64,000 bases of DNA from a bacterium. Lineage in GTDB: Bacteria > UBP4 > UBA4092 > JAOAEQ01. Position numbers and translations under genes: made by a program. Under the pieces are notes generated by a model. The model saw nothing but the letters and a program-made list of their open reading frames with translations, was not told where the DNA came from and ran no database searches. Of this stretch, positions 26,399 through 38,772 are shown one piece after another; the stretch's first letter is position 1, and each line of letters starts with the position of its first letter. The DNA lies in contig JAOAEQ010000004.1 of the NCBI GenBank assembly GCA_026416715.1, positions 74,956 through 138,955 of the forward strand, written 5' to 3'.

Positions 26399-26965
26399 AT
26401 GAAAGAAAAAGGATTTACGTTGATTGAGCTGTTGATTGTTGTTGCGATTATTGCGATTCTAGCAGCAATTGCGATTCCGAATTTTCTCGCTGCGCAGACC
26501 AGAAGTAAAGTCGCACGAGTTCAAGAAGAGATGCGAACATTAGCAACTGCGCTGGAAAGTTATTATGTTGATAATAATTACTATCCTTTAGACAGTCGGA
26601 ATGAAGGACCGGATGATGGCGATATTGATTTTACCTTCTGGAATTTCGACCCGCAAATAGGGTTAAATGTAACCGATGGAACTATCTGGTGCTTAACGAC
26701 TCCCCTAGCATATATAACCAAATATCCAGCTGATTTATTTTATAAAACCGGTCGAGATAAATATTTCCAATATGCGGCAAATCGGTCGAACTGGATTATC
26801 GCCAGTTGCGGGCCGGATAATGATAGTGAAGACCGAGGCGATGTAAAAGAACGAAATATCATTCCGGATAATGAGAATTTCTACGTTTGGGCGATTGATA
26901 CTGTCAGATATGACCCGACGAATGGAACGATTAGTAATGGGGATATCATTCGAATAAAAGGGTAA
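26399..26965 (+). CDS. Type II secretion/type IV pseudopilin, GspG-like
   Basis: 188 residues beginning MKEKGFTLIELLIVVAII. The prepilin peptidase site is G5|F6, with Glu at +5 and a ~20-residue hydrophobic helix. The globular part (YYVDNNYYPLD, YITKYPADLF, RSNWIIASCGPDND) is of the GspG-like class common in PVC-group and related environmental bacteria, which often carry many stand-alone copies. No secretion machinery is adjacent. A strong Shine-Dalgarno precedes the ATG. It could be a surface fibre subunit or a pseudopilin of a remote apparatus. Confidence 0.88.
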   Translation: MKEKGFTLIELLIVVAIIAILAAIAIPNFLAAQTRSKVARVQEEMRTLATALESYYVDNNYYPLDSRNEGPDDGDIDFTFWNFDPQIGLNVTDGTIWCLTTPLAYITKYPADLFYKTGRDKYFQYAANRSNWIIASCGPDNDSEDRGDVKERNIIPDNENFYVWAIDTVRYDPTNGTISNGDIIRIKG

Positions 26966-36667: not shown

Positions 36668-37129
36668 ATGACTGAATATAGTGCTTCGAAAAGAATTGGA
36701 GAGCTCCTCATCGAACAAAAACTGATTACGCCGGCTATTTTGGAACAAGCACTTTCCCAGCAGCGGCAAGAATTAGTTCCGTTAGGGAAAATATTTATCC
36801 AGCTTGGTTGCGTTTCTGAAGACCAGTTAAACTCGGTTCTTGCTAGTCAGTTTGGATTAGTCTATCTTAACCCACGGTCATTTGTTTTACAGGATACATC
36901 GCTCCTTAATTTCATTCCGGAATCGCTCGCGCGACGTTTTGTTTGTTTTCCTCTCGAAAAGAAACATGGGACGCTGTTGGTGGTTATGGCTGATCCGTGG
37001 AATACCGATGCGATTAATGAGCTTACGAAAGTCACCCAATTAACTATCCAACCGAAATTTAGTCGCCACGAATGGATTGAGCAAATCATTGATAAATATT
37101 ATAATAGTCAGTGGCAGAAGAATAATTAA
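36668..37129 (+). CDS. Stand-alone MshEN (GspE N-terminal) domain protein
   Basis: 153 residues from the ATG at 36668; a longer in-frame start overlapping the SGNH gene is rejected because the promoter lies inside it. The whole protein is a T2SSE_N/MshEN domain. Two 24-residue motifs (R9-Q32 and P38-Q61) are separated by five residues, each of the form LGxx...L..ALxxQ/LxxQ, the arrangement described for c-di-GMP-binding MshEN domains. Arg9 of the first motif is kept. No ATPase domain follows, unlike GspE/PilB. It is a close paralogue of the N-terminus of the next gene. A c-di-GMP sensor role is inferred. Confidence 0.82.
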   Translation: MTEYSASKRIGELLIEQKLITPAILEQALSQQRQELVPLGKIFIQLGCVSEDQLNSVLASQFGLVYLNPRSFVLQDTSLLNFIPESLARRFVCFPLEKKHGTLLVVMADPWNTDAINELTKVTQLTIQPKFSRHEWIEQIIDKYYNSQWQKNN

Positions 37130-37248: not shown

Positions 37249-38772
37249 ATGGCAAAACAACTCGGTGAACTTCTTATTGAACAGCGGTTGATAACGAAAA
37301 GTATGCTTGAACAGGCGTTGGAGTTACAACAGCAGCGCCGGTTACCATTAGGGAAAATCCTATTGCAACTGGGATATGTTACCGAGGAAGATTTGAATAC
37401 TATCCTCGCGAAACAATTCGGGAGTATCTATATCAATCCGCGTGGATTCGTTGTAAAAGATATTAACCTGTTAACCTTGATTCCAGAACCTATCGCGCGA
37501 CAATATATCTGTTTCCCATTAGAAAAAAATGAAGAGCAGTTAACTGTAGCGATGTCTGACCCTTGGGATACCGACGCTATCCAGAAATTAACCGAATTAA
37601 CGAAATTGACTATTCGTCCGATATTTAGTCGTCGGGAATGGATTGAACAGATTATCGATAAATATTATCCGACAGTGAAATCTAACGACCGTTCATTATC
37701 ATCCGATACAATTACGGGGATTTTTCCCATAACCGCAGTCCCTGAACCTAATGGCACTCAATCTAAACCTGTAGAATCTCAACCAATTTCCTCAAAAACT
37801 GATACAGTGATGGATATATCCACACCGCAGACTCCAGTTCAGCCATCAGCGGCAGTTGTTCCGGATAAACGTTCATTGGATACCGAGCAAGCTCTGGATA
37901 AAGCGCAACTAGAATCGCTATCCCAGCAACCCAATGTTCCGCTGGGATTAACTCCATCTACTTCGACAGAATCGCACGTATCACCACAACCGCAACCGCA
38001 TCTATCTTCTCCAGAACCGACGCAGATTCAGCCATCGCTATTAACGAAACCGATACCCGAGTTTACTTTTGATAGTTTTGTCGTTGGGACTGGGAATCAA
38101 CTCGCTTGGGCAGCAGCGAAAAATGTCGCTGAATCACCAGGTACAACCTATAATCCACTCTTCATTTATGGCGGGGTCGGACTCGGCAAAACGCATCTGA
38201 TGAACGCAATCGGCAATTTAATTCTGCAAAAAAATCCTCATAGTTTATTGGTATATATCCCCTGCACTCGTTTTATTGAAGAGATGATTACTGCGATTGC
38301 ATCAGGAACAATCACTCCGTTCCGCCAGAAATACTGGCATCTGCAAGTTTTGCTCATTGACGATGTTCAGTTTCTCGCTGGTCAGGAACGAACCCAAGTC
38401 GAATTATTCCAGATGTTTGAAGAATTGCATCATCGTCGAGCACAAATTGTTCTCACCAGCGACCGTCTTCCGAAAGATATCCCGCAACTCGAAGAACGAC
38501 TTCGCTCCCGATTCGAAGGCGGATTGATTGTCGATGTCCAGATGCCGGATTTAGAAACGCGCATAGCGATTCTCCGCCGAAAAGCGATGCAACGGAATTT
38601 GCAGCTTCCGGATGATATCGCCAATGTCATTGCAACGTTCATCTCGACAAATGTTCGCGAACTGGAAGGGGTGTTGAATAAAATTAACGCAATTTCATCG
38701 CTCGGTGGCCGACCGATAACGATGCAGGTTGTTCAAAATATTTTAAGCGAAATGATTAAACAAGGTAGGTGA
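37249..38772 (+). CDS. MshEN-DnaA(domain III) fusion ATPase
   Basis: 507 residues. Residues 1-140 are an MshEN domain with two 24-residue c-di-GMP-type motifs (4-27 and 33-56) five residues apart; the first starts Gln instead of Arg. Residues 141-268 are a Pro/Ser/Gln-rich linker. From 271 (FTFDSFVVGTGNQLA) there is a complete DnaA AAA+ domain III: Walker A GGVGLGKT (308-315), Walker B LLIDD (368-372), box VII RLRSRF with arginine finger R421, and sensor II R470 in NVRELEG. The protein stops at the end of the lid, so DnaA domain IV (DNA binding) and domain I are absent. A replication-control (Hda-like) or other nucleotide-switch role is inferred. Confidence 0.9.
   Translation: MAKQLGELLIEQRLITKSMLEQALELQQQRRLPLGKILLQLGYVTEEDLNTILAKQFGSIYINPRGFVVKDINLLTLIPEPIARQYICFPLEKNEEQLTVAMSDPWDTDAIQKLTELTKLTIRPIFSRREWIEQIIDKYYPTVKSNDRSLSSDTITGIFPITAVPEPNGTQSKPVESQPISSKTDTVMDISTPQTPVQPSAAVVPDKRSLDTEQALDKAQLESLSQQPNVPLGLTPSTSTESHVSPQPQPHLSSPEPTQIQPSLLTKPIPEFTFDSFVVGTGNQLAWAAAKNVAESPGTTYNPLFIYGGVGLGKTHLMNAIGNLILQKNPHSLLVYIPCTRFIEEMITAIASGTITPFRQKYWHLQVLLIDDVQFLAGQERTQVELFQMFEELHHRRAQIVLTSDRLPKDIPQLEERLRSRFEGGLIVDVQMPDLETRIAILRRKAMQRNLQLPDDIANVIATFISTNVRELEGVLNKINAISSLGGRPITMQVVQNILSEMIKQGR

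Follow-up and report, generated by a model that had tools for sequence, protein, structure and literature searches.

A DnaA-type ATPase domain joined to an MshEN domain, with relatives in type IV pilus operons

DnaA is the chromosomal replication initiator, and its relatives without domain IV, of which Hda is one example, have to our knowledge been described solely in the regulation of replication. The DNA analyzed here, a stretch of 64,000 nucleotides (the window) from a bacterium of a little-known phylum, contains a gene in which a spare copy of DnaA's ATP-driven core is joined to the sensor domain of type IV pilus motors. An earlier note on this gene had offered two readings: a replication regulator under second-messenger control, or a new ATPase that has been put to work in some other motor or switch.

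Architecture of the fusion protein

The open reading frame begins with ATG and agrees exactly in coordinates, frame and length with that reported in the earlier note. The features of this gene and of the one directly upstream are as follows.

36668–37129, + strand: MshEN-only protein of 153 aa, directly upstream of the fusion gene; its motif I starts with Arg and its motif II with Pro
37249–38772, + strand: fusion protein of 507 aa, MshEN, linker and DnaA domain III (Pfam, NCBIfam, AlphaFold2)
37249–37683, + strand: MshEN domain, residues 1–145 (Pfam MshEN, NCBIfam NF053729; pLDDT mostly above 90; match to 5htl)
37258–37329, + strand: 24-residue c-di-GMP-type motif I, residues 4–27, with Gln at the Arg position and Arg at the Gly position
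37345–37416, + strand: 24-residue c-di-GMP-type motif II, residues 33–56, with Pro at the Arg position
37684–38052, + strand: Pro/Ser/Gln-rich disordered linker, residues 146–268 (pLDDT below 50 at 147–251)
38053–38772, + strand: DnaA domain III (residues 269–507), made up of the AAA+ core and the lid, ending with the protein and without domain IV (Pfam, NCBIfam, AlphaFold2, Foldseek)
38170–38196, + strand: Walker A GGVGLGKTH, residues 308–316, with K314 and T315
38350–38364, + strand: Walker B LLIDD, residues 368–372, with D371 and D372
38497–38523, + strand: box VII RLRSRFEGG with the Arg finger R421; Gly424 stands in place of the usual DnaA Trp
38650–38664, + strand: sensor II NVREL with R470

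Comparison with Pfam revealed that both domains exceed their cut-offs (MshEN, 58.1 bits against 23.1; Bac_DnaA, 199.9 bits against 23), and residues 4–56 matched the NCBIfam model of the MshE-type c-di-GMP motif at 57.5 bits against a cut-off of 38. Walker A, Walker B, R421 and R470 were all located where the claim of an intact DnaA domain III had placed them. The reported lack of domain IV was borne out as well, since Bac_DnaA_C of Pfam had no match in the protein and the alignment to the NCBIfam DnaA model TIGR00362 stopped at model position 341 of 437, with a score (336.4 bits) just under the equivalog cut-off of 343.9. The T2SSE ATPase domain of Pfam likewise had no match in the protein. 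The AlphaFold2 model, built with 43 sequences, showed two confident domains at residues 1–145 and 270–505 (mostly pLDDT above 93), joined by residues 147–251, which are predicted to be disordered; the Pro/Ser/Gln linker, previously given as ~130 residues, is present with a length of about 120. Foldseek matched the model to domain III of B. subtilis DnaA (8bv3; TM 0.95 by target, rmsd 1.4) and, ranked lower, to the MshE–c-di-GMP structure 5htl. Because Pfam, NCBIfam, AlphaFold2 and Foldseek concur, the earlier description of the protein, including R421 and R470, was right.

The protein shares its fold and all AAA+ motifs with DnaA, but lacks domains I, II and IV. It shares an N-terminal MshEN domain with two 24-residue motifs with the PilB/MshE/GspE motors, whereas its ATPase is a DnaA-type AAA+ domain and theirs is T2SSE. 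MshEN has been described as an input joined to variable outputs, namely REC, HD-GYP, CheA, CheX, cyclase and Ser/Thr kinase (PMC5013675), and an NCBIfam model of the glycosyltransferase NfrB shows a further such combination; DnaA-type AAA+ is absent from the outputs named in that paper.

Conservation of the fusion in three phyla

A database scan for close relatives returned canonical DnaA genes only, and the fusion first seemed phylum-specific because domain-level rows hid other fusions. The open reading frames behind the other matches, together with a profile of five fusions, ruled out this restriction and added two more phyla. Among 386 genomes, with the best 4 candidates per genome scored, the profile gave seven full-length matches (588–734 bits), and the next best match (376 bits) covered the DnaA part only; since only these candidates were scored, a very divergent fusion could be missed. 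The seven fusions belong to three phyla: both sampled genomes of the window's phylum (G000, the window genome, and G001, of the same class and another family), all three genomes of a second phylum (G025, G310 and G172), and two of three genomes of a third (G149 and G287).

The G001 orthologue (519 aa) is conserved end to end, with 47% identity over residues 2–502 (419 bits), which rules out an assembly chimera at this locus; homologues with the same fusion, whose absence from related genomes the earlier note had named as a ground for rejection, exist in G001 and in two further phyla. The linker sequence is not conserved among the fusions, few genomes carry them and the assemblies are MAGs, as would be expected of a fortuitous or decaying fusion without function, or of a chimera; nevertheless, both domains are kept end to end in three phyla and the catalytic residues in 7/7 proteins, making such an origin highly improbable. 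No description of the MshEN–DnaA-III architecture was found in the open literature searched, with subscription journals and preprints outside the search. The earlier statement that no protein of this architecture has been described therefore stood, although the architecture is not unique to the window genome, and these proteins form a small, apparently undescribed family of AAA+ ATPases.

The MshEN half and the c-di-GMP question

In the MshEN consensus, a motif of the form RLGxx(L/V/I)(L/V/I)xxG... occurs twice. The two 24-residue motifs described in the earlier note are present in the window protein, five residues apart, and both keep the Leu-Gly pair and Gln24; the leading Arg, at the guanine-stacking position, is replaced in both, by Gln in motif I and by Pro in motif II, and Gly at position 10 of motif I is replaced by Arg. 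Because both guanine-stacking Arg residues are lost, binding of c-di-GMP by the window protein appears doubtful from its sequence. Of the claim of a c-di-GMP-type MshEN domain, the assignment to MshEN thus stands, whereas the ligand is uncertain. Published work disagrees on the damage caused by loss of Arg: variants of MshE Arg9, Asp12 and Gln32 changed affinity no more than fivefold (PMC5013675), whereas Ser at the motif II Arg of PilF GSPII-A abolished binding (PMC12002112).

The first motif Arg is kept in the MshEN-only neighbor and in the G001 fusion, both motif Arg residues are kept only in the main G149 and G287 fusions, and the G025 fusion lacks both Gln24 residues. No other MshEN is as closely related to that of the fusion as the domain of the MshEN-only neighbor (60% identity), which accordingly looks like a local duplication. 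The window genome contains eight strong GGDEF matches, so c-di-GMP signalling is likely present there. G000 and G001 also share short MshEN proteins (L126:1477-2187 and L127:1435-2166) whose C-termini carry hydrophobic segments that probably span the membrane.

The DnaA half and a possible role in replication

The K and T of Walker A, the DD of Walker B, the D of sensor I, the Arg finger and the R of sensor II are invariant in all seven fusions. Domain III of the window protein is 51–57% identical to that of DnaA (51% to the window genome's own DnaA). In B. subtilis, the DNA-contacting residues of domain III are Asn187, Ile190, Ile193, Arg202, Glu228 and Lys222 (PMC10721633), and Ile190 and Lys222 are also given as such in PMC6669920. 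Asn187, a base contact, was kept in 165 of 172 canonical DnaAs of the sample and in none of the seven fusions; in the window protein it is replaced by Glu, and Lys222, a phosphate contact, by Gln. The ISM positions Ile190, Ile193, Arg202 and Glu228 are retained there, that is, four of the six ssDNA-capture residues. Trp267 of box VII (SRFEWG) is Gly in 7/7 fusions, whereas 138 of the 172 canonical DnaAs have Trp at this position and 21 have Met, and His231 is retained in only two. The Arg finger and most of the filament residues are kept. Invariant ATPase residues on the one hand and lost contact residues on the other indicate that the ATPase was preserved while part of the DNA-handling chemistry drifted.

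A normal dnaA, for which a search had been proposed, is present in the window genome at L135:4526-5992, full-length and with domain IV, and the fusion gene is a second gene that is not near it. One further weak Bac_DnaA match in this genome, in a frame of 250 aa, is read from its sequence as a probable IstB/DnaC-like ATPase.

As a replication regulator, the DnaA-III half would enter DnaA-ATP filaments and either block initiation or, like Hda, stimulate hydrolysis, with c-di-GMP gating through MshEN. The closeness of the domain to bona fide DnaA, the retained Arg finger and filament residues, the lack of any Hda found in the window genome and its GGDEF proteins are consistent with this role. 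Hda also has a DnaA-like AAA+ core without domain IV. The fusion differs from Hda, however, in carrying MshEN, in scoring below the cut-off of the Hda model (115 against 194.8 bits), in its lower Foldseek similarity (TM by target 0.65–0.78) and in having no sliding-clamp-binding motif conserved among the seven proteins in a regex search. Loss of Asn187 and replacement of Trp267 in every fusion, the rarity of His231 and the replacement of both MshEN Arg residues in the window protein also speak against such a regulator, and so does gene context (see below). With a full dnaA elsewhere in the genome, the first reading of the earlier note received no contextual support; a replication role is less likely, and we consider this form of it unlikely.

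Gene context of the fusions

In all three genomes of the second phylum, the fusion gene opens an operon and is directly followed on the same strand by pilB, pilT, a gene for a PilS-like kinase, pilR and pilC. Pfam identifies the corresponding products in the G310 operon (L309) as T2SSE with MshEN, T2SSE, 6TM_PilS/HisKA, Sigma54_activat/Response_reg and T2SSF. The presence of pilT, pilS and pilR in an operon marks type IV pili. G149 and G287 each have several MshEN-AAA genes clustered directly after a prepilin-like gene and a prepilin peptidase gene, and the products of these clusters include MshEN–DnaA-III proteins of up to 1999 aa; the G149 cluster is followed by a TonB-like gene, pilB, pilT and pilC, and the fusion gene of G287 is cut off by the end of its contig. 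The chance of immediate T2SSE adjacency in two independent phyla was about 1e-4, a rough estimate that assumes 20 T2SSE genes among 4500 and considers neighbors alone.

The location of relatives inside pilus gene clusters of two other phyla suggests that a replication engine was reused for pilus control, and separates the fusion further from DnaA and from a replication regulator. G310 and G172 also contain a short DnaA beside GspE and GspK/PilM-like genes (L311:6686-7741, with domains III and IV only, and L312:5479-6345), in addition to the full dnaA and the fusion.

The context in the window's own phylum is weaker. In G001, a pilB-pilC-dprA-topA-hslV locus ends 1.4 kb before the fusion, which is separated from the ATPase domain of pilB by about 9 kb, a distance that counts against a pilus role. 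This position is compatible with another explanation, in which the protein, despite having no domain IV, would use its initiator-specific motif to polymerize on DNA that is single-stranded or melted, and would regulate either transcription or the uptake of DNA by the pilus machine. Type IV pili can import DNA, the G001 fusion follows pilB, pilC and dprA, and the window protein retains the equivalents of Ile190, Ile193, Arg202 and Glu228; conversely, the Glu and Gln at the Asn187 and Lys222 positions and the lack of a double-strand DNA-binding domain argue against it, and we regard such a DNA-binding regulator as improbable.

The window genome has 18 T2SSE-family matches (17 above the cut-off and one weak), with many GspE/PilB paralogues and one pilB-pilT-pilB-pilC locus. 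None of the 18 is on the 146-kb contig of the fusion, and the link to pili in this genome is therefore by homology only. A type IV pilin-like gene with a prepilin-type N-terminus is located about 10 kb upstream of the fusion (window 26399-26965), without pilus ATPase genes nearby. The same switch might instead serve a type II secretion-like GspE machine in the window genome, in keeping with its GspE/PilB paralogues and with a T2SSG-like pseudopilin gene after the ordinary dnaA in both genomes of the phylum (L135:3978-4448 and L134:2588-3034). The phyla with clear context, however, have pilT, pilS and pilR in the operon, and a GspE machine is quite unlikely to be the target. Of the two readings in the earlier note, that of an ATPase co-opted for another motor or switch fits best, because MshEN–DnaA-III genes occur in type IV pilus operons of two other phyla, although T2SSE is absent from the window contig.

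Origin of the fusion and other DnaA modules without domain IV

In a tree of 76 rows, the genomes' own canonical DnaAs grouped among other DnaAs, whereas the fusions, the tandem DnaA-III proteins and the TPR-DnaA-III proteins fell outside the canonical group with moderate support (85/89). This position leaves a recent duplication of the genome's own dnaA unsupported as the source. The G000 and G001 fusions formed one clade (100/96), and a tree holding all fusions together was not rejected (AU p = 0.216), so a single origin is neither rejected nor established; the MshEN tree was weak and compatible with one or several fusion origins.

Several further arrangements of DnaA-III without domain IV were observed. 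Most genomes of a 40-genome phylum, that of G013, carry DnaA-III C-terminal to long TPR arrays, in very long proteins often encoded beside nadC (L316:6728-11983, L313:5919-10004, L314:6195-10277 and L172:5958-11984); a CHC2-type zinc finger may also be present, to judge by a weak Pfam match in L316. Tandem DnaA-III proteins are encoded in G062, G106 and G242 (L315:10646-12598, L213:5033-7093 and L212:3927-6017); the G242 gene (L213) adjoins CheW, CheC, TPR and DUF4388 genes, and that of G062 (L315) is near CheB and DUF4388/TPR genes. REC-DnaA-III proteins with a further C-terminal region (L196:826-2682, L197:1006-2853, L194:883-2865 and L191:823-2931) occur in several copies in the phylum of G287 and G386. 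Another family (L175:3293-5152, L176:3409-5250, L181:2935-4782 and L183:3236-5383) combines an N-terminal domain of ~90 residues, DnaA-III with a canonical box VII, a Pro-rich linker and a C-terminal domain that matches no Pfam family, and forms a distinct clade within canonical DnaA.

We tentatively entertain a broader conjecture, which is possible yet falls short of an even chance. Surface-motility signalling in bacteria may have taken over DnaA domain III as a general output module driven by ATP, probably through a paralogue that arose early and has since become widespread. The MshEN-DnaA-III proteins of pilus operons, the tandem proteins of loci with chemotaxis genes, and the REC- and TPR-DnaA-III proteins would then be one unrecognized family, and its MshEN members would assemble on pilus motors and switch them. 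The TPR-type genes are not in pilus loci, which counts against a pilus role, and a general pilus role for all DnaA-III modules is therefore not established.

Discussion

On balance we lean, by a modest degree, toward a co-opted switch of the DnaA type that depends on ATP and whose target would be a PilB/GspE-type motor; this target, the assembly and the direction of regulation are what we infer. Upon ATP binding, the DnaA-type domains would assemble via the conserved Arg finger, as the intact Arg finger and sensor II suggest, and this assembly would gather several MshEN domains on flexible linkers. The gathered domains could then act on the motor: they might dock on the motor itself or on its platform, or change places with the MshEN domain that the motor already has. 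The assembly of a pilus or T2SS-type structure would thereby be switched or positioned, until ATP hydrolysis resets the DnaA-III assembly. In some members of the family, the MshEN half may be modulated by a cyclic dinucleotide; in the window genome, the input with an intact Arg may have shifted to the neighboring MshEN-only protein.

As a conserved product of type IV pilus operons, an AAA+ protein of the DnaA type would add a component of a new kind to the pilus and show the initiator ATPase in a novel use, and would extend the known outputs of the MshEN sensor domain. It raises the question of why a pilus motor would need a DnaA-like ATPase. For genes annotated as "DnaA" that lack domain IV, a role in replication should not be assumed.
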